64,000 nt of DNA from Mycolicibacterium confluentis (GTDB taxonomy: Bacteria; Actinomycetota; Actinomycetes; Mycobacteriales; Mycobacteriaceae). Below, in pieces: positions 30,218 through 37,949 of this stretch. Position 1 is the stretch's first letter, and each line of letters opens with the position of its first letter. The position numbers and the translations under genes were made by a program. The stretch spans positions 3,100,001-3,164,000 of the forward strand of contig NZ_AP022612.1 in the NCBI RefSeq assembly GCF_010729895.1, given 5' to 3'. The notes under the pieces were generated by a model. The model did not search any database. It was given only the letters and a program-made list of their open reading frames with translations, and was not told the origin of the DNA.

Positions 30218-31063
30218 TCAGTCGGCTTTGCCTGCCTCCGACTCGGCGAGTTCGCGCTTCCACTGCCGGAACGTCTCCTCGGTGCGCCCGCGGCGCCAGT
30301 ACCCCGAGATCGAGTTGGCCCACTTGGCGTCCACACCACGCTCTTTGCGGATGTACGAGCGCAGATTGTGCATGACGGCTTGGGCTTCACCGTGGATGAA
30401 GACCTGCACCTGGCCGGGCAGCCACGGCGAGCCCTTGACGGCCTCGATGAGGGGTGCGTTGTCCCCGGCCTGCTGATCGGTGACCATGTCGGCGCGACCG
30501 CCGCGGTACACCCACCGCAGTTCCACACCGTCCGGCCTGGTCAGTTCCAGTTCGTCGTCGGGACCGGAGATCTCGATGAAGGCCTGCCCCACGGCGTCGT
30601 CGGGCAGAGCCTCGAGTGCGGCACTGATGGCGGGGATGGCGGCTTCGTCACCTGCGAAGAGGTGCCAGTCCGCCGCGGGGTCCGGCGAGTAGGCACCATT
30701 CGGGCCCGCGAGGTACACCACGTCGCCGGATTGGGCCGATGCGGCCCACGGACCGGCGATGCCGTGCTCACCGTGCACGACGAAGTCGATGGTCACTTCC
30801 CGGGCCGACGGGTCGGCGCGGCGGACCGTGTAGGTGCGCAGCGTGGGTGCCTGATCTTTGGGGAAGCTGTCGAGCGTCAACGGGTGCGGCAGGCCCTCGA
30901 CGTCGACGCCCGCGGGGACGAACGCGATCTTCACGTACGAGTCGGTGAATTCGCTCGGGGTGAAAGTGTCGAAACCCTTGCCTCCCAAGACCACTCGAAC
31001 GATGTGGGGCGTGAGCCATTCGGTGCGGACCACTTCGAACGTATGCAGGGGGCGACCGGCCAT
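30218..31063 (-). CDS. viuB: siderophore-interacting FAD-binding protein (ViuB-like)
   Basis: A protein of 281 residues, the counterpart of Rv2895c. The FAD-binding SIP domain shows LRTYTVRRAD (R-x-Y-T/S) near residue 99 and the NAD-like domain shows FAGDEAAIPAI near 158. The C-terminal FIHGEAQAVMHNLRSYIRKERG and ISGYWRRGRTEE are hallmarks of ferric-siderophore reductases of the ViuB/YqjH group. It should release iron from siderophores in the cytoplasm. TATAGT (31071-31076) lies seven bases before the ATG, so the mRNA is probably leaderless. No IdeR box is evident here. Confidence 0.92.
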   Translation of the reverse strand: MAGRPLHTFEVVRTEWLTPHIVRVVLGGKGFDTFTPSEFTDSYVKIAFVPAGVDVEGLPHPLTLDSFPKDQAPTLRTYTVRRADPSAREVTIDFVVHGEHGIAGPWAASAQSGDVVYLAGPNGAYSPDPAADWHLFAGDEAAIPAISAALEALPDDAVGQAFIEISGPDDELELTRPDGVELRWVYRGGRADMVTDQQAGDNAPLIEAVKGSPWLPGQVQVFIHGEAQAVMHNLRSYIRKERGVDAKWANSISGYWRRGRTEETFRQWKRELAESEAGKAD

Positions 31064-31148
31064 AACGCCGACTATACGAGGACCGCCGACGTGGCGGCGG
31101 TGTCGGTTGCCCGCACGCATGACCCGTCGCAGCCCGCACGCATGAAAA

Positions 31149-31172
31149 GGGGCGCCCACAGTGGGACGCCCC
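31149..31172 (-). terminator. terminator of small peptide gene 1
   Basis: GGGGCGCCCAC and GTGGGACGCCCC pair through eleven bases with one bulged A, 20 bases past the stop of the peptide gene. On the transcript strand the stem is followed by TTTTC, giving a good intrinsic terminator. Confidence 0.6.
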
Positions 31173-31192
31173 CCTTCACAAGAGTTTCCTGG

Positions 31193-31456
31193 TCAGCGAC
31201 CTTCTCCGGCAGTGCTGAACATGGGCCGATCCGGGCCGGCGCCGAAGCCGGGGCCCTGGACGCCGGTGCGGGGACCGCGATCCCCCAGCACACCGAAGTC
31301 TTCGTACTGATCGCCCGGGGCGTTGAGGCTGTAGGGCACGCCACTGGTGGCGGGGAGCTGAATGTCCTGCGCAGACGCGATGGCCGTCGAGGCCAGTCCT
31401 ACGCTCACTGCGGCCAGAGCGCCTGCGGCGATGGAGGCGATCGTGATGCTCTTCAT
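31193..31456 (-). CDS. small exported peptide, family copy 1 (unrecognised family)
   Basis: An 87-residue protein with a signal peptide (MKSITIASIAAGALAAVSVG, then LASTAIASA). The mature part is about 55 residues and carries YSLNAPG and then DFGVLGDRGPRTGVQGPGFG, the motif shared with the three other copies at 33.7, 34.4 and 36.5 kb. It is the most divergent copy, with a longer C-terminal tail ending in FSTAGEGR. The ribosome site AGGTGGGA precedes the ATG. The upstream region has the same paired TGGCAG and GTTTTCTTCCA boxes as the other copies. No function is known to me; secretion is inferred from the signal sequence. Confidence 0.72.
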   Translation of the reverse strand: MKSITIASIAAGALAAVSVGLASTAIASAQDIQLPATSGVPYSLNAPGDQYEDFGVLGDRGPRTGVQGPGFGAGPDRPMFSTAGEGR

Positions 31457-31548
31457 TGGAAATCCCACCTAGTTCGTTTGCCGTGTCTTCCGTCTCGTGG
31501 GGCGGGAGGCGTGTTGTCGTTCTGATCGTTGGAACCGGCGTGTGAAGT

Positions 31549-31609
31549 GTTTTCTTCCATGCCATTTCACTCTTTTCGACGTTGGCAGGATGTTGGCGCT
31601 GAGTGGCAG
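31549..31609 (-). promoter_or_regulatory. shared upstream module of peptide copy 1
   Basis: GTTTTCTTCCA (31549-31559) is followed by a 23-base gap, TGGCAG (31583-31588), 15 bases and TGGCAG (31604-31609). The same boxes with the same 23-base gap precede all four peptide genes. It probably includes regulator-binding sites, with the two TGGCAG copies 21 bases apart, about two helical turns. Confidence 0.55.
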
Positions 31610-31627
31610 CAATGCGTCGCACCGGAC

Positions 31628-33361
31628 TCAGAACGGTGGTTCTTCGGTGTCGTCGATGGGTGGTGGGGGTGGTGGTTGCCAGTCGGGGGGCAGGGTTTCG
31701 GGTTCGGGTGGGTCGTTGACCCAGGTGCACCAGGGGCTGGTGGAGGGGGTGCCTTTGAACAGGTGCAGCATTCTGCGCATGTGGTTGCGCCACTGGCGCT
31801 GGTCGATCTCTTGGCGGCGGGCAGCGTTGAGGCGGCGTTGTTCGGCGTTGCGGGGCCGGTGGGCTGTGAGTTGCGCGCGGGCGTGGGTGTGGCGGCGGGC
31901 TTTGTCGCGTTGGCGGTGGCGGCGCCGTGGTGGTGGCGGTGGGCCGAACAGGTCGGGGGCTGGCGGTGGGCCGAACAGGTCGGGGGCCGGCGGTGCGCCG
32001 AGCAGGTCGGGGGCCGGCGGTGGGCCGAGCAGGTCGGGGAACAGTTCGGCCCCGGCGGGGGTGGTTGTGTAGGTGCGGCCCGTCGGTGAGGTCCACACGA
32101 TGGTTCCGTCGCCTTGTTGTTGGTCGGTCCAGTCGAGGAAGGTTTTGTCGCGGTGGTGTTCGCGGCAGTAGCAGCCCAGATTCCACGGCGCGGTCAGTCC
32201 GCCGGCGGTGGGGTTGGTGTGGTGGAACGGGGTGGTGTGGTCGAGGTCGGCGAACCAGGCTGGGCGGTCACAGCCGGGGAATCGGCAGGTCAGGTCGCGG
32301 GTCTTGATGAACCGCGCCAACCCCGCTGACGGGGTGTAGGTGTGTGCCTGGGCCGCGGTGGCGGTGAGGGTGGGGCAGGACACGGGGCGCAGCAGGGCGG
32401 TCGGCACCAGGTCGCGGACCTGGGCGGCGTCGATGATCCCGAAGCCCTGCAGGTAGCCGGGCTGATCACTGTCGCCGGAGACGGTGGCCGCAGACGCGAC
32501 CACGTTGATCACGGTGCGCACCGCCGGCACCCCCGCGGCACCGGTGGCCGCGCCGCCTGCACGGGCACCTTCCCCGCGGGCACCCGCTGCCGCCGCGGCG
32601 TCGGCGGCGGCGGTGTGGGCCGCGGTGCGGCTGGGGCATTGGGCCTGTCCGCAGTCGCAGCTCAGCAGCTGGTCTTGGTTCAGGGCGGTCAGGGCGTCGG
32701 CGCGGCGCTGCCGCACAGTCCGCGAATCCGCGGCGCACACCGAGGTCGCCATCGCTGCCAGGCGGGCATCCAGGATTGCGGCGCCGGGGCCGGTCAGGAT
32801 GCCGCGCAACTGGGCCGTGCCGTCGGGTTGAGCGGTGACCGTGACGTGGCGGCCGGCTTCGGCGTGCACGCGGCGTTCCTTGGCGGCCTCGGGATCGAGG
32901 GTGCGGATGGCGGCGTCGACGGCGTCGATGACCCGGCGCCGCGACCACGACGACCAGGTGGTCAGCTTCTGCGTCATCTGCGCATCGATCTGCGGCATCA
33001 AGGTGCCGGTGACGTATTCGGTGCGGGTCAGGATGAGTTTGACGGTGGGCCAGTCGACGTCGCCGCCGCGCAGCAGCGCCCCCACCAGCGGCAGGCGGGT
33101 GTCGAGGGCTTCGGCGTGGGCGACGGTGTCCTGGGCCAGTTTGGGCGCCAGGTTCAGGGCGGCGCCGATCTCGGCGCTGGTGCGGGTCAGGCCGGTGATG
33201 ATGCAGTAGCCGGGATCGGGATCGTCCGCCTCGGCCTCATAGGTGCGGTGTTCGACCAGCCGGGCGATGGCGGCCATGCGGCGGCCGATGAGCATCGTCT
33301 CGAAGCGGTGGCACGCCTCGATTTCGGTGAGCAGCCCGTCCGGCGAATCATCATCGAACAC
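31628..33361 (-). CDS. DUF222/HNH endonuclease-domain protein (13E12 type)
   Basis: A protein of 577 residues. The N-terminal ~330 residues are the DUF222 helical domain found in the 13E12 repeat proteins of mycobacteria. An HNH domain follows with CRFPGCDRPAWFADLDHT, PWNLGCYC and REHHRDK, so the D-H, N and H ligands are in place. The C-terminal region has four 9-residue proline-rich repeats, a basic stretch and a WQPPPPPP tail. The start GTG at 33361 was chosen because CATACT lies seven bases upstream (33369-33374), suggesting a leaderless transcript, and because VFDDDSPDGLLTEIEA fits the family N-terminus; GTGs at 33385 and 33400 are alternatives. Nuclease activity is unproven for this family. 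Confidence 0.85.
   Translation of the reverse strand: MFDDDSPDGLLTEIEACHRFETMLIGRRMAAIARLVEHRTYEAEADDPDPGYCIITGLTRTSAEIGAALNLAPKLAQDTVAHAEALDTRLPLVGALLRGGDVDWPTVKLILTRTEYVTGTLMPQIDAQMTQKLTTWSSWSRRRVIDAVDAAIRTLDPEAAKERRVHAEAGRHVTVTAQPDGTAQLRGILTGPGAAILDARLAAMATSVCAADSRTVRQRRADALTALNQDQLLSCDCGQAQCPSRTAAHTAAADAAAAAGARGEGARAGGAATGAAGVPAVRTVINVVASAATVSGDSDQPGYLQGFGIIDAAQVRDLVPTALLRPVSCPTLTATAAQAHTYTPSAGLARFIKTRDLTCRFPGCDRPAWFADLDHTTPFHHTNPTAGGLTAPWNLGCYCREHHRDKTFLDWTDQQQGDGTIVWTSPTGRTYTTTPAGAELFPDLLGPPPAPDLLGAPPAPDLFGPPPAPDLFGPPPPPRRRHRQRDKARRHTHARAQLTAHRPRNAEQRRLNAARRQEIDQRQWRNHMRRMLHLFKGTPSTSPWCTWVNDPPEPETLPPDWQPPPPPPIDDTEEPPF
31938..32045. repeat. four 27-bp tandem repeats inside the DUF222/HNH gene
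   Basis: Four in-frame units of 27 bases encode variants of PDLFGPPPA. Units differ at a few positions, so the array is not very recent. Such coding repeats can change length by slippage without breaking the frame. Confidence 0.8.
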
Positions 33362-33716
33362 ATGTTCGAGTATGCCCTCACCCACCGACAGATCACGCAC
33401 GTCAAGCCGCAGGCTGTGGACCAACTCGCAACTGTGGATAACCCCGGATCTGGGGGTGGCGGCAGGCAGGAGCCCGGGGCCAGCGGTGCGGAGGGTGCCG
33501 TGTCCCGGCTGGCGATCACTGGTGCGTGGCCACGCAAGCGGTGATTCTTGCCGGCGCTGCGATCGTCGATGGCAATGTTCGCGACGGTGGCGGCGACGCA
33601 ACCGGGAGACGGCGGGCCGTGGCCGGTTCCGATGGTCAGGCGACGACGGCCAGCACCGGTGAGAACACACACTATGAGGGGCGCCCCCGTGGGGGCGCCC
33701 CTCATAGTGGTGGGGA
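33362..33716. other. intergenic stretch between DUF222/HNH gene and peptide copy 2
   Basis: No convincing coding sequence on either strand. It holds the putative leaderless promoter of the DUF222 gene near its left end and the peptide copy 2 terminator at 33670-33709. The middle part shows nothing I can name. Confidence 0.6.
33670..33709. terminator. 19-bp perfect stem terminator after peptide copy 2
   Basis: Both arms are 19 bases (CACTATGAGGGGCGCCCCC and its complement) with only GT between them, seven bases past the stop. The symmetry means it can act on either strand. There is no U-tract. Confidence 0.7.
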
Positions 33717-33950
33717 TCAGCGGCGCGCGGTGCCCGAACCGAAGCCGGGACCGGCAACACCGGTACGCGGGCCGCGATCGCCCAGCACACCGAAGTCAAC
33801 GCCGTAGTCGCCAGGAGCGCTCAAGCTGTACCCAGCGCCCGCGGCAACCTGCTCAACCTGACCGACCGCGGCCACCGCCGGAGCGGCCAAACCCACGGCC
33901 ACCACAGCCAGGGCACCAGCAGCGATCGAGGCAATCGAAATGTTCTTCAT
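33717..33950 (-). CDS. small exported peptide, family copy 2 (unrecognised family)
   Basis: A 77-residue protein. The signal peptide is MKNISIASIAAGALAVVAVG followed by LAAPAVAA. The mature part, about 48 residues, has YSLSAPG, DFGVLGDRGPRTGVAGPGFG and the end SGTARR. It is identical to copy 3 at 34407-34640. The ATG at 33950 follows AAGGTGGGA. A longer in-frame reading upstream exists, but it runs through the conserved non-coding module and lacks a signal peptide, so it was not used. No function is known to me. Confidence 0.78.
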   Translation of the reverse strand: MKNISIASIAAGALAVVAVGLAAPAVAAVGQVEQVAAGAGYSLSAPGDYGVDFGVLGDRGPRTGVAGPGFGSGTARR

Positions 33951-34039
33951 TGGAATCCCACCTTGCTTATTCCAGGTCTTCCGTCTTGTGGGCGGGAGGC
34001 TCGTTGTCTGTTCTGATGGGTGCAACCCCAACGGGAACC

Positions 34040-34100
34040 GTTTTCTTCCAACAGATTTCACCAACACAAGGCCTGGCAGGAAATTATCGACCCCTGGCAG
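34040..34100 (-). promoter_or_regulatory. shared upstream module of peptide copy 2
   Basis: GTTTTCTTCCA at 34040-34050, then 23 bases, TGGCAG 34074-34079, 15 bases, TGGCAG 34095-34100. On the transcript strand it reads CTGCCA, CTGCCA, TGAAAT, TGGAAGAAAAC. The start codon is 90 bases downstream. Confidence 0.55.
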
Positions 34101-34204
34101 AATCGAACCGAATTTCAACCGCGCCGTTCGGCGGCCCCGTGGGCACCCCCGACGGGAGCGCGATGACCCGACGAACAGCGAGAGCTGGCGGGAAGCCAAA
34201 ACTC

Positions 34205-34284
34205 GACGAAATCAAAACCCGACAAAATCAACGCCCGCCAGAATCAAAGCCCGCCAGAGCCAAAGCCCGCCAGAGCCAAAGCCC
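34205..34284. repeat. five 16-bp minisatellite units
   Basis: Five head-to-tail units of 16 bases, the last two identical (GCCAGAGCCAAAGCCC) and the first three increasingly divergent. There are no spacers, so it is not a CRISPR array. It lies between the two copies of the 440-bp repeat and is itself not duplicated. Confidence 0.8.
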
Positions 34285-34359
34285 GCCAGGTCCATGACCA
34301 CCCTGAAACATCTACGTCGACGAGATCCCTCCAGTTCAAACCATTTCAGGGTCACAACA

Positions 34360-34399
34360 CACTATGAGGGGCGCCCCCGTCGGGGCGCCCCTCATAGTG
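34360..34399. terminator. 18-bp perfect stem terminator after peptide copy 3
   Basis: Arms of 18 bases (CACTATGAGGGGCGCCCC and complement) with loop CGTC. It differs from copy A by one loop base, which preserves the stem. Confidence 0.7.
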
Positions 34400-34406
34400 G
34401 TGGGGA

Positions 34407-34640
34407 TCAGCGGCGCGCGGTGCCCGAACCGAAGCCGGGACCGGCAACACCGGTACGCGGGCCGCGATCGCCCAGCACACCGAAGTCAACGCCGTAGTCG
34501 CCAGGAGCGCTCAAGCTGTACCCAGCGCCCGCGGCAACCTGCTCAACCTGACCGACCGCGGCCACCGCCGGAGCGGCCAAACCCACGGCCACCACAGCCA
34601 GGGCACCAGCAGCGATCGAGGCAATCGAAATGTTCTTCAT
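34407..34640 (-). CDS. small exported peptide, family copy 3 (unrecognised family)
   Basis: A 77-residue protein identical to copy 2, encoded in copy B of the 440-bp repeat. It has the same signal peptide, YSLSAPG block, DFGVLGDRGPRTGVAGPGFG motif and ribosome site. Identical coding and upstream sequence implies that the two copies are co-expressed and increase dosage, unless one has been inserted very recently. It lies downstream of the ArsR-SRPBCC pair on the same strand but has its own module. Confidence 0.78.
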   Translation of the reverse strand: MKNISIASIAAGALAVVAVGLAAPAVAAVGQVEQVAAGAGYSLSAPGDYGVDFGVLGDRGPRTGVAGPGFGSGTARR

Positions 34641-34729
34641 TGGAATCCCACCTTGCTTATTCCAGGTCTTCCGTCTTGTGGGCGGGAGGCTCGTTGTCTG
34701 TTCTGATGGGTGTAACCCCAACGGGAACC

Positions 34730-34790
34730 GTTTTCTTCCAACAGATTTCACCAACACAAGGCCTGGCAGGAAATTATCGACCCCTGGCAG
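34730..34790 (-). promoter_or_regulatory. shared upstream module of peptide copy 3
   Basis: GTTTTCTTCCA 34730-34740, TGGCAG 34764-34769 and TGGCAG 34785-34790, in the same spacing as copy 2. It sits immediately after the end of the SRPBCC gene. Confidence 0.55.
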
Positions 34791-34808
34791 AATCGAAGCG
34801 GAATACCT

Positions 34809-35240
34809 TCAGTGAAGAACGCCAGCCAACTGCTCGAAGGTGAGTTCCCAGCCACTGTGGAAGCTCTCGTACTCCTCGGGCGGTAGCAGGGTGTGCTCGA
34901 TCGCCATCAGGGTCTGCCCATCGGCAACAGGCGAGAACGTCACCTCAACGATGCTCACGACGGTGGGGTCCGCCCAGTTTGAGTTGCTCCAGGTGAACCG
35001 CAGCAGTCGCGGACGGTCGATCGCCAGGAACTGCCCCACGATCAGGACCGACTTCCCGGAGTCATCGAGGTCAAAGCGCACGCCTCCCCCGACCCGGGGT
35101 TCAACGGCAACCGCGACGCAGAAGACGGGACGCGGGCACATCCAGTCGGCAAGGGATTCCGGGTCCAGCCACTGATCGAACACGACCTCGGGCTCGGCGG
35201 GCATCACCCGCCGCACCCGCACTGTCGCTGCGTCGGTCAC
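34809..35240 (-). CDS. SRPBCC (AHSA1-like) domain protein
   Basis: A 143-residue START-like protein. Family features are FDQWLDPESLADWMCP near residue 21, LRFTWSN near 80 and the C-terminal GWELTFEQLAG helix. AHSA1-like proteins downstream of ArsR regulators are common; they bind hydrophobic ligands or have unknown roles. The start overlaps the ArsR stop (ATGA), so the two form an operon. Confidence 0.9.
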   Translation of the reverse strand: MTDAATVRVRRVMPAEPEVVFDQWLDPESLADWMCPRPVFCVAVAVEPRVGGGVRFDLDDSGKSVLIVGQFLAIDRPRLLRFTWSNSNWADPTVVSIVEVTFSPVADGQTLMAIEHTLLPPEEYESFHSGWELTFEQLAGVLH

Positions 35241-35614
35241 GGAGTCCGCTTCCGCCGCAGGCGGTCGGAGAGCGCATCAGCCCGCGCCGACCAGAAGTCA
35301 GCCTGTTCATCAATCCACTTCTGCGCCATGGTCAAACCACGGGGATCGAGCGAGAACCAGTGCTCCCGCCCACGAATCTCGCGCCGAACCAGACCCGCCC
35401 GCTCGAGCACGCCTACGTGGCGGGAGACCCCCGCGAAGGTCATCGGCAATGGTGCGGCCAGATCGGTGAGACGCGCATCGCCGTGCCGGAGCGCCTCCAG
35501 GAGCGCCCGACGAGTCGGATCCGCCAGCGCGGCGTAGGCGCGATCCAGCACCTGATCTTCAACCACCTTGTTGACTATAGCCGCCAACCGTGGTGTGCTG
35601 GACCGATCCAACAT
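35237..35614 (-). CDS. ArsR-family transcriptional regulator
   Basis: A protein of 125 residues. The winged helix is typical: ALADPTRRALLEALRHGDARLTDLAAP, then MTFAGVSRHVGVLERAGLV and the REHWFSLD wing. There is no obvious cysteine metal site, so it belongs to the non-metal ArsR group paired with SRPBCC genes. The ATG at 35614 is five bases after TTATAT, a -10 candidate lying in the palindromic operator, so the transcript would be nearly leaderless; downstream GTGs are alternative starts. Confidence 0.88.
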   Translation of the reverse strand: MLDRSSTPRLAAIVNKVVEDQVLDRAYAALADPTRRALLEALRHGDARLTDLAAPLPMTFAGVSRHVGVLERAGLVRREIRGREHWFSLDPRGLTMAQKWIDEQADFWSARADALSDRLRRKRTP

Positions 35615-35632
35615 TCAACATATAAGTTGAAT
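35613..35632. promoter_or_regulatory. ArsR-type operator between divergent arsR and DUF899 genes
   Basis: ATTCAAC and GTTGAAT arms flank ATATAA, forming a 20-base dyad. It covers the start of the ArsR gene and lies 15 bases before the DUF899 start, so one regulator could repress both. Binding is inferred. Confidence 0.55.
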
Positions 35633-35646
35633 AATGCGGAGGACAT

Positions 35647-36390
35647 ATGAAACCCGAGATCGTCACTGCGACTGAGTGGGACGCCGCCTACGAGACACTG
35701 CTGGCCAAGGAGAAGGAACACACCCGAGCGGGAGATGCGCTCGCGGCCCTGCGCCGCCGAATGCCCTGGACGAAGGTGGACGGGAAATACGCCTTCGAGG
35801 GACCGCGGGGCTCAACGACACTGCTCGACCTGTTCGAGGGACGCCGACAGTTGATCGTCTATCGCGCGTTCATGGACCCCGGTGTGCACGGCTGGCCCGA
35901 GCATGGGTGCGTGGGCTGTTCCCCGATGGCAGACCACATCGGCAACCTGGCGCACCTCAACGCCCGCAACACCACACTCGTCTATACCTCCCGCGGATCC
36001 CAAGAGGACATCGCCAGAATCAAGTCCCGAATGGGCTGGAACATCCCCTGGTACACCATGATTCCCGACGAGAACGACCACGCGTTCGACAACGACTTCG
36101 GCGTCCGGGACTGGCACGGCACCAACGCGTTCATTCGTGACGGCGACGACGTGTTCCGCACCTACTTCATCAACAACCGCGGTGACGAGGCCTTCGTCAA
36201 CACGTGGGCCTTCCTCGACATGACCGCATTGGGCAGGCAGGAGACCTGGGAGGACTCGCCAGCGGGTTACCCGCAGAGCCGGCCCTACGAATGGTGGAAC
36301 TGGCACGACGAATACGGCGACCGCGAACCGTACCGCTGGTTCGGAGATCCCACTCCCGAGGATCGGCACGACCCACGTCCACCGCGCTAA
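35647..36390 (+). CDS. DUF899 (thioredoxin-like) protein
   Basis: A protein of 247 residues. The DUF899 blocks are FMDPGVHGWPEHGCVGCSPMADHI near residue 77-100, with a CVGC pair in place of a thioredoxin CxxC, and FGVRDWHGTNAFIRDGDDVFRTYF near 150. The WWNWHDEYG tail is typical. The family is related to thioredoxin folds; the activity is unknown. GGAGG seven bases before the ATG gives a strong ribosome site. It diverges from the ArsR gene across one operator. Confidence 0.9.
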   Translation: MKPEIVTATEWDAAYETLLAKEKEHTRAGDALAALRRRMPWTKVDGKYAFEGPRGSTTLLDLFEGRRQLIVYRAFMDPGVHGWPEHGCVGCSPMADHIGNLAHLNARNTTLVYTSRGSQEDIARIKSRMGWNIPWYTMIPDENDHAFDNDFGVRDWHGTNAFIRDGDDVFRTYFINNRGDEAFVNTWAFLDMTALGRQETWEDSPAGYPQSRPYEWWNWHDEYGDREPYRWFGDPTPEDRHDPRPPR

Positions 36391-36411
36391 CAAGCCGACC
36401 AGCAGACACAG

Positions 36412-36445
36412 CATGAGGGGCGCCCCATTTGGGGCGCCCCTCATG
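36412..36445. terminator. 15-bp perfect stem terminator between DUF899 gene and peptide copy 4
   Basis: CATGAGGGGCGCCCC, ATTT, then the exact complement. The genes on either side converge on it, so it should stop both transcripts. The core is the same as in the other peptide-gene hairpins. Confidence 0.7.
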
Positions 36446-36454
36446 TGGTGGGGG

Positions 36455-36682
36455 TCAGCGGCGCGCGGTGCCTGAACCGAATCCAGGACCTGCAACACCG
36501 GTCCGCGGGCCACGGTCGCCCAGCACGCCGAAGTCGTCTCCGTAGTCACGGCCCGGGGCACTCAAGCTGTATCCGGCGGCAGTTGCCACCTCACTCGCGG
36601 AGGCGACGGCCGGAGCGGCCAGACCCACGGCCACCAGGGCCATAGCACCAGCTGCGATTGCGTTGATTGTGTACTTCATCAT
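36455..36682 (-). CDS. small exported peptide, family copy 4 (unrecognised family)
   Basis: A 75-residue protein. The signal peptide is MMKYTINAIAAGAMALVAVG followed by LAAPAVASA. The mature part has YSLSAPGRDYGD and then DFGVLGDRGPRTGVAGPGFG, ending SGTARR as in copies 2 and 3. The first of two adjacent ATGs aligns with the other copies and follows AAAGGTGGG. It is downstream of dprA on the same strand but has its own upstream module. Confidence 0.77.
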   Translation of the reverse strand: MMKYTINAIAAGAMALVAVGLAAPAVASASEVATAAGYSLSAPGRDYGDDFGVLGDRGPRTGVAGPGFGSGTARR

Positions 36683-36735
36683 TGGAATACACCCACCTTT
36701 CATGTTGTCTGCACGGCTCAACCGACACCAGAAGG

Positions 36736-36797
36736 GTTTTCTTCCAACAGATTTCATCACCGGCGAACTTGGCAGGAAGTTGTCGGAACAGTGGCAG
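36736..36797 (-). promoter_or_regulatory. shared upstream module of peptide copy 4
   Basis: GTTTTCTTCCA 36736-36746, 23 bases, TGGCAG 36770-36775, 16 bases, TGGCAG 36792-36797. Spacing between the TGGCAG boxes is one base longer than in copies 1-3. The start codon is 54 bases downstream, closer than in the others. Confidence 0.55.
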
Positions 36798-36812
36798 AAT
36801 CACGTCACAGGG

Positions 36813-37949
36813 TCAGGTCCCCGACGGTTTTCGCACCAGCTGCCAACCTCCGTCCACCCGGGAGATCAGCCCCGCAAGCTCCAACATCGCCAGCGGCCCC
36901 AGCACCCGCTGCGGCGGCATGGCGGCGTTGACCCCGATCTGCTCGACGGTCGCCACACCACGGCCCGGCATCGCCTCGAACACCACACGTTCGGCGTCCG
37001 TGAGCTGATCCAACGGGGTCTGCGGATGCACCGGATCCTCGGCGAGCTCCCCCATCCGCCCGACGATCTCCACGATCTCGTCGCTCCGCGACACCAACTG
37101 CGCACCCGACCGCAACAGCGCATGGCAGCCCGCCGAGGCGGCCGACGTCACGGGACCGGGAACCGCACACCGCACCCTCCCCAGGGCCTCGGCCCACGCC
37201 GCGGTGTTGGCCGCCCCGCTGCGTAGACCGGCCTCCACCACGACCGTCGCGCCAGACAGCACGGCCACCAACCTGTTGCGGGTCAGGAACCGATGCCGCG
37301 CGGGACGGATGCCCGGCGCATACTCCGACACGATCAACCCCGCACTCGCGATTCGATGCAGCAGCGCCGAATGTCCCGACGGATAGAACACGTCCACACC
37401 CCCGGCCAGCACCGCGACCGTGCAACCCTCGGCGGCCAGCGCAGCACGGTGCGCCGCGCCGTCAATGCCGAAGGCGCCGCCCGACACCACCGCCACATCG
37501 CGCTCCACGAGCCCACTCGCCAAATCGGCGGCCACATGCTCGCCGTAACTGGTGGCCGCACGCGTACCCACGATCGCCGCGGCACGCATCGCTACCTCGT
37601 CCAGCCGCTGCGGCCCCAACACCCACAACACCAGCGGGGCCCAACCCCCGGGCCGCTTCTGGGCCTTCTCGGACTCAAAGGCCCTGAACGCCAGCGTCGG
37701 CCATTCGTCATCGACCGGCGTCACCAGCCGCCCACCCCGACGATCCAGTGTCTCGAGATCCTCTGCCGCACAGTCAAGATCGCGACGCGCCAGCGTGCGA
37801 TCACGCAGATCCACGTCGACGCCGCCGCTGCGGACCATCCCCGCGGCCTCGATCGGCCCGACCGCGTCGACCAACCGCGCCAACGTCGGGCACGGCGGTT
37901 CGACCACGCGCGACAGGTAGGCCCAGGCCAGGCGCTCCTTGTCGGTCAT
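36813..37949 (-). CDS. dprA: DNA-processing protein DprA
   Basis: DprA (Smf), 378 residues, binds single-stranded DNA and loads RecA during uptake or recombination. The Rossmann-like core shows AIVGTRAATSYGEHVA, VSGGAFGIDGAAHRAAL, VLAGGVDVFYPSGH and LTRNRLVAVLSGATVVVEAG. A C-terminal winged-helix domain follows. It overlaps yifB by four bases in the yraN-yifB-dprA group, as in M. tuberculosis. Confidence 0.95.
   Translation of the reverse strand: MTDKERLAWAYLSRVVEPPCPTLARLVDAVGPIEAAGMVRSGGVDVDLRDRTLARRDLDCAAEDLETLDRRGGRLVTPVDDEWPTLAFRAFESEKAQKRPGGWAPLVLWVLGPQRLDEVAMRAAAIVGTRAATSYGEHVAADLASGLVERDVAVVSGGAFGIDGAAHRAALAAEGCTVAVLAGGVDVFYPSGHSALLHRIASAGLIVSEYAPGIRPARHRFLTRNRLVAVLSGATVVVEAGLRSGAANTAAWAEALGRVRCAVPGPVTSAASAGCHALLRSGAQLVSRSDEIVEIVGRMGELAEDPVHPQTPLDQLTDAERVVFEAMPGRGVATVEQIGVNAAMPPQRVLGPLAMLELAGLISRVDGGWQLVRKPSGT

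Follow-up and report, generated by a model that had tools for sequence, protein, structure and literature searches.

Introduction

The promoters recognized by the extracytoplasmic function (ECF) sigma factors SigH and SigE, and the tandem site bound by MtrA, a response regulator of the OmpR/PhoB family, are the closest described counterparts of the upstream module treated here. This module, an ECF-type promoter with a paired operator, precedes four small genes for exported-type peptides in a 64,000-nucleotide (nt) stretch of the Mycolicibacterium confluentis genome (contig NZ_AP022612.1, positions 3,100,001 to 3,164,000), referred to as the window. The optimum for Mycobacterium tuberculosis SigH is GGAAYR-N17-18-GTT, with variation tolerated at positions 2, 5 and 6; at position 6 of the -35 element a purine is favoured by SigH and a pyrimidine by SigE (PMC4803200). 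The promoter PrshA of Corynebacterium glutamicum reads GGAAGA / GTTAAA (PMC5483222). The MtrA site is a 9-nt direct repeat with 2-nt spacing (PMC6265350), and the MprA motif of C. glutamicum is TKTTAAGAAM (PMC12113857).

The promoters of the window and those found elsewhere in the genus have the layout of SigH/SigE-type ECF promoters (GGAA / 17-18 nt / GTT). At position 6 the window family has A, the SigH-like purine, whereas 69 of 72 genus-wide promoters have a pyrimidine and are SigE-like; from the layout we infer control by a SigH/SigE-type sigma factor. The passages compared from the published SigH/SigE promoter accounts mention no small exported peptides, and the window module adds a tandem operator upstream. 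This operator resembles MtrA-like OmpR/PhoB sites in its tandem direct repeats at steps of approximately 11 bp (87 operators; 13-copy alignment), but its sequence, TTYCTGCCA / YCGATCAA / TYCTGCCA, differs from the MtrA motif (PMC6265350). MprA was weighed as a candidate regulator; its C. glutamicum motif, the one compared, is unlike the operator. Other mycobacterial small exported peptides have the same signal-peptide style, and those found with a model of the module also have the operator of the window family, but their mature parts fall in clusters apart from it. No paper on these peptides or this operator was recognised in an exact-word search of the open-licence literature, which is not proof that none exists; the wider peptide regulon is apparently undescribed. 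The four genes probably belong to a stress-controlled exported-peptide regulon with a common operator and ECF promoter, of which the window family would be a lineage branch.

The peptide family

The original prediction described four small exported proteins with a common C-terminal motif, and the reading frames bear this out:

31193..31456, minus strand: peptide gene copy 1, 87 amino acids (aa), MKSITIASIAAG...AGEGR (open reading frame (ORF), family alignment, orthologue in Mycobacterium sp. ACS4331)
33717..33950, minus strand: peptide gene copy 2, 77 aa, protein identical to that of copy 3 (ORF, family alignment)
34407..34640, minus strand: peptide gene copy 3, 77 aa, protein identical to that of copy 2 (ORF)
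36455..36682, minus strand: peptide gene copy 4, 75 aa (ORF, family alignment)

All four translations contain the C-terminal motif DFGVLGDRGPRTGV with GPGFG, and their start is signal-peptide-like by eye and by simple scripts, with a basic start, a hydrophobic stretch and AxA. In the five copies measured, the mature part is without cysteine and its net charge lies between -3 and 0. No cysteine occurs in the six translated copies of the M. confluentis genome, so a lipobox, and with it the mark of a lipoprotein, is lacking. When one copy was used as query against this genome, the four window copies were returned at E values of 9.7e-42 to 4.0e-24, followed by two extra copies (2.7e-13 and 3.2e-12); the next place reached only 0.098. 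The M. confluentis genome has six family copies, four in the window, one at 611.8 kb and one at 1628.4 kb; the interval first proposed covers the four and omits the last two. Seven copies are present in Mycobacterium sp. ACS4331 (G166), one of them with a premature stop near its start (L050:4273-4497), of which intact relatives exist.

The family profile was searched against 396 Mycobacterium genomes sampled from a larger group, M. confluentis (G000) included. At E <= 0.01, 141 genomes matched; the strong matches (E <= 1.8e-25) were from M. confluentis and G166 only, the next best having an E value of 5.1e-6, and no convincing family match was found in the other 394 sampled genomes. The 28 non-family loci returned have the signal-peptide style or less in common with the family and are without the C-terminal motif. 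The C-terminal part alone, searched against 397 genomes, matched the same two at E <= 2.2e-14 and nothing elsewhere better than 5e-4. At E <= 0.01 this search returned 26 genomes, two strongly and 24 weakly; the weak matches in 8 of the 24 were inspected and taken as unrelated frames. The proposed lineage specificity is supported for the mature sequence, which is matched strongly only in M. confluentis and ACS4331 among the sampled Mycobacterium genomes. Protein searches gave 21 members at E <= 4.2e-15 and one more (22), 7 of them from M. confluentis and ACS4331 and 15 from other public sources.

The description of the family as unrecognised agrees with searches of Pfam, NCBIfam, PHROGs, PADLOC and PDB, none of which gave a match above cut-off. 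Over 24 members, Pfam, PHROGs and PADLOC returned single-member matches only, at E 0.011 or worse; for three copies the best E value with Pfam and NCBIfam was 0.12, below cut-off, and PDB gave no match at E <= 1. That the window family came from phages or other mobile elements was considered and found unsupported: IMG/VR searched with the C-terminal profile, and the phage and plasmid sets searched with the 611.8-kb copy as sole query, returned no match to the family.

The upstream module

The same module lies upstream of all four window copies, as had been claimed, and consists of the following elements:

31583..31609, minus strand: paired operator of copy 1, CTGCCA...TCCTGCCA, 24 nt from the -35-like box
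34074..34100, minus strand: paired operator of copy 2
34764..34790, minus strand: paired operator of copy 3
36770..36797, minus strand: paired operator of copy 4, CTGCCA-CGACAA-TCCTGCCA
31533..31558, minus strand: ECF-sigma-like promoter of copy 1, GGAAGA-N17-GTT
34024..34049, minus strand: ECF-sigma-like promoter of copy 2
34714..34739, minus strand: ECF-sigma-like promoter of copy 3
36720..36745, minus strand: ECF-sigma-like promoter of copy 4

The promoter pattern GGAWGA-N17/18-GTT was found upstream of 12 of 13 family copies, compared with 53 of 13000 dinucleotide shuffles; 10 of these copies have GGAA and 2 have GGAT, the boxes being GGAAGA or GGATGA as the pattern required. The tandem operator CYGCCA-N13..15-TCCYGCCA was found upstream of 11 of 13 copies and in 1 of 13000 shuffles. 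Across both host genomes two composite patterns occurred at family upstreams only (5/5 and 8/8), and the reversed controls gave 0. Both host genomes encode SigH and further SigH-like factors; strong SigH-like sigma factors (E <= 1e-57) number five in M. confluentis and three in ACS4331.

The base frequencies over 87 operators read TTYCTGCCA-NCSG-YCGATCAATTYCTGCCA-NCGGAATT, then GTTT. GGAA follows the operator directly in 65 of the 87, and GTT begins 19-20 nt after GGAA in 62 of these 65 and rarely at other distances. With the pattern GGAW-NN-N17/18-GTT, a promoter was detected within 45 nt of 73 of 92 genus-wide operators and in 13 of 1840 shuffles. The genus-wide gaps between operator and promoter measure 1-3 nt (64 cases), 13 nt (8) or 35 nt (1); of the 24 copies that make up the two seed families, 20 have both elements, at gaps of 24-25 nt (14), 34-35 nt (4), 15 nt (1) and 37 nt (1). 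The gaps thus cluster near 2, 13, 24 and 35 nt, in steps of approximately one helical turn, which is what the binding of a protein to a single face of the DNA would call for.

Occurrence of the module in the genus

The module is not private to the window family and heads unrelated small exported-type peptides in many mycobacteria. A sequence-only model built from 13 module copies and run over the 396 genomes matched 173 of them at E <= 0.1, against approximately 40 expected from the E values, which are rough. Near-full-length matches (E <= 1.4e-9) are present in five genomes, G000, G166, G280, G262 and G012. Among 20 regions fetched, those of G012, G280 and G262 carry arrays of a second peptide family (4, 5 and 2 members aligned, respectively). 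The profile of this second family aligns with the window family at the signal-peptide end only, and the model finds the module at 9 of its 11 members, four of the nine being model seeds.

The first 100 matches outside these five genomes, taken unselected in rank order, served as a test set; 5 had too little downstream sequence and 95 were judged. For 77 of the 95 operator matches, from 55 genomes, the same strand carries, 10-260 nt downstream, a closed ORF that is no longer than 150 aa, begins like a signal peptide and has a ribosome-binding site. On the opposite side and strand, where no length limit was applied, such a start was found for 14 of 95. In the reverse direction, the model matches 13 of the 28 loci that were found through their signal peptide; these 28 loci, two of which include model seeds, span 86.9 kb and hold 18 model matches, each of them just upstream of a small peptide gene. 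Of ten signal-peptide-only matches examined in other genomes, three have the operator.

When 83 mature parts (the 77 and six examples of other types) were compared by short-query BLAST, 8 clusters resulted, with 45, 29, 2, 2 and 2 members and three singles. The ...TVYVDVK-like peptides make up one of the two large clusters and the ...VDTTVHQSR-like peptides the other; two further clusters are the window family and the family of G012, G280 and G262. Every cluster except the L019 type has an operator-bearing member. By this comparison the operator is common to at least five unrelated predicted mature peptide types. The two frequent small exported types in L202-L301 are proteins of approximately 99 aa, often ending in TVYVDVK, and of 55-72 aa, often ending in HHDWLDQIGPHVTVPQVDTTVHQSR/VDTTVHQSR. 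Ten scanned members of other peptide types did not reach the Pfam or NCBIfam cut-off. Near- or fully identical operator-peptide units are found megabases apart in two genomes (L225/L226 and L253/L254), which hints at recent duplication or transfer. Protein relatives of the other peptides, annotated as hypothetical proteins, are encoded on four Mycolicibacterium plasmids, from vanbaalenii, aubagnense, gilvum and arabiense (L302-L305).

Two functional alternatives bear on this reuse. The peptides might be bacteriocin-like agents of antagonism or kin recognition, with a mature part that turns over fast behind a retained promoter and signal peptide; competition would then account for the replacement of mature parts from one lineage to another, for the tandem arrays and for the presence on plasmids. 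The unrelated mature parts under one operator, the arrays, the relatives on Mycolicibacterium plasmids and the concerted evolution of copies 2 and 3 (see below) are all of the kind expected. We consider antagonism unlikely, however: among the neighbours scanned no immunity gene candidate was recognised, nor by Pfam any modification or dedicated export gene of the kind that accompanies ribosomally synthesized and post-translationally modified peptides; the mature charge and lack of cysteine given above do not suit such agents, and the C-terminal motif is under purifying selection. A gene pair of the PmbA/TldD type does lie near the 1628-kb copy (see below). Alternatively, the peptides might be cell-to-cell signals, with the operator bound by the responding regulator in an autoinducing loop, which the several like copies and the near-private occurrence of the full operator at the family in the two host genomes would fit. 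This is very unlikely, since no receptor or kinase gene was seen to recur in the neighbourhoods scanned, the peptides would be long as signals, and the same operator serves unrelated peptides.

Proposed mechanism and its assessment

The family, selection on its protein, and the presence, reuse and spacing of the module are supported by comparison of sequences; export, the sigma factor, the activator, the stress and the function of the peptides are what we infer from them. In the regulon reading, each gene would be a one-gene unit of promoter, signal peptide, mature part of approximately 45-60 residues and hairpin. It would be switched on by a SigH/SigE-type ECF sigma factor together with a candidate activator, which would bind the tandem operator CTGCCA / CGACAA / CTGCCA (steps of approximately 11 bp) upstream, on a fixed helix face. 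In many other mycobacteria, small exported peptides of unrelated sequence would be expressed from the same operator and promoter layout, and the window family would be the branch of its lineage, multiplied by duplication, with copies 2 and 3 kept alike by concerted evolution. The peptides would be released to the cell envelope or the medium under envelope or oxidative stress, and may use the conserved C-terminal motif to act on a partner outside the cytoplasm.

Several observations weigh against this regulon reading. Among the family copies, L049 15223 is without both elements and L052 6095 without the operator. Of the 8 places that a looser operator pattern found in M. confluentis, 5 are at the family and 3 are not, and its reversed control gave 6. 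The operator is also missing from two members of the second family. Outside the five genomes it is mostly the 35-nt operator part of the model that matches. When the 396 genomes were scanned with a strict composite pattern, 14 of them yielded 24 matches, of which 14, from four genomes, stood at peptide genes and the other 10 elsewhere; the reversed control, counted by eye, yielded 20. The strict module was rejected as a genus-wide element, being at chance level outside the four. By script, 18 of the 95 judged matches have no small exported ORF, and 8 of the 100 fetched matches gave no paired site by regular expression. Among the 28 signal-peptide loci, 15 are without a model match, including DUF732-like proteins and some peptides of the same types. 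At the best place of each of the four plasmid records (7 places in total) there was no model match at E <= 1. The signal peptides were called by eye or by a crude script and not by a dedicated predictor. Gaps of 15 and 37 nt fit the helical steps less well. At position 5 the window-family -35 box has G and so departs from the SigH optimum GGAAYR. Upstream of sigH itself, over approximately 1500 nt, both genomes lack the SigH-optimum pattern as well as the family pattern, and for this reason the sigma-factor assignment has no positive control here.

A wider proposal is put forward tentatively, at less than even confidence: one conserved promoter, an operator phased at whole helical turns and one signal-peptide style would form a common platform for unrelated mature payloads in each lineage, as single genes or arrays. 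The window family would be one of these payloads; together they would be what a single envelope-stress circuit delivers outside the cell, and competition among strains may have diversified them. If true, this would show how the sequences of extracellular peptides can be replaced under control that persists. Mycobacterial small exported proteins are poorly annotated, and a common promoter would allow them to be found and named by their regulation instead of their sequence and would make their inducing condition and regulator testable in a laboratory strain. The module would also illustrate clearly how, in nature, an activator site is kept in phase with an ECF promoter.

Selection and copy evolution

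Nonsynonymous (dN) and synonymous (dS) divergence were estimated for three orthologue pairs between M. confluentis and ACS4331; copy 4 was excluded, its ACS4331 counterpart stopping after three codons. The values (dN/dS) were 0.072/0.291, 0.054/0.348 and 0.066/0.309, the first being copy 1 and its orthologue (dN 0.072, dS 0.291), and by these estimates the window-family orthologues are under purifying selection. Within the C-terminal motif dN was 0.039, 0.013 and 0.071, so that in two of the three pairs the motif evolves more slowly than any other part, and it is the most conserved stretch over 24 members. This bears on the possibility that the peptides have no function outside the cell, promoter and signal peptide forming a stress unit in which the RNA or the leader acts and the mature part is loosely constrained. 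Mature parts do vary between lineages while promoter and signal peptide stay, but the conservation of the C-terminal motif within the window family argues against such an arrangement, which is quite unlikely. A conserved upstream leader ORF was sought and rejected, the in-frame stretch before copies 2-4 not being open at copy 1 or the 1628-kb copy; the sole match to known RNA elements at gathering scores was a tRNA in L048, away from the peptide gene.

Copies 2 and 3 lie within a tandem duplication:

33667..34113, minus strand: duplicate unit A, with hairpin, gene and promoter; identity to unit B 99.1% over 448 nt
34357..34804, minus strand: duplicate unit B, 99.1% identical to unit A over 448 nt

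The dS between copies 2 and 3 is 0 in M. confluentis, and 0.115 between their counterparts in ACS4331; across the species it is 0.23-0.25, and the gene order is the same. Since dS within each genome is lower than dS between the species, concerted evolution or separate recent duplications of the two copies are suggested.

A hairpin is found 3' of each gene:

31143..31178, minus strand: hairpin 3' of copy 1, possible terminator (z -1.7)
33670..33709, minus strand: hairpin 3' of copy 2, terminator-like (z -7.3, T-tail pattern)
34360..34399, minus strand: hairpin 3' of copy 3 (z -7.3)
36412..36445, minus strand: hairpin 3' of copy 4 (z -5.3)

A terminator role of these hairpins is plausible. The prediction of strong terminators holds in that all four copies have a hairpin, but that of copy 1 is weak and the T-tail pattern is seen only at the copy starting at 33717; the view of each copy as a complete cassette is supported.

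Genomic neighbourhood

The peptide genes form an island between a SIP-type gene (30218-31159) and a gene at 36813-37949 which we take from its sequence to be dprA. The island also holds AHSA1-domain, ArsR-type regulator and DUF899 genes, and one DUF222 gene between copies 1 and 2:

31628..33427, minus strand: DUF222 gene, start assumed, judged a passenger

The original prediction saw in these peptides a locus-specific secreted system tied to the DUF222/HNH gene. The position of that gene and the conservation of the island in ACS4331 are in keeping with this, but it is highly improbable: of 19 DUF222 matches in M. confluentis none lies within 100 kb of the 611.8-kb or the 1628.4-kb peptide copy, other genes are annotated beside these two copies, and the same module heads other peptides genus-wide. 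The association was therefore rejected and the link regarded as incidental.

The SIP locus was fetched from 19 relatives; in 10 of them the SIP gene and dprA are at most 200 nt apart, and relative to these the window locus is an island. In six of the 19 the gap measures approximately 0.6-1.2 kb and contains other ORFs; the remaining three show no dprA or have a masked stretch there. The dprA-SIP junction, corresponding to window positions 31160-36812, has different inserts in L094, L098, L101, L105, L107 and L110, as would be expected of a permissive site of insertion.

Upstream of the 1628-kb copy, at approximately 1.4 kb and beyond a gene of the beta-lactamase family, lies a gene pair of the PmbA/TldD type (L048:2174-5070). 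In ACS4331 (L049:6126-15190) two ORFs of 1505 and 1514 aa are located between two peptide copies, directly after the stop of one of them; the counterpart peptide in M. confluentis is followed by a Beta_elim_lyase gene and not by long ORFs. The 1514-aa ORF of ACS4331 contains two LysM domains.

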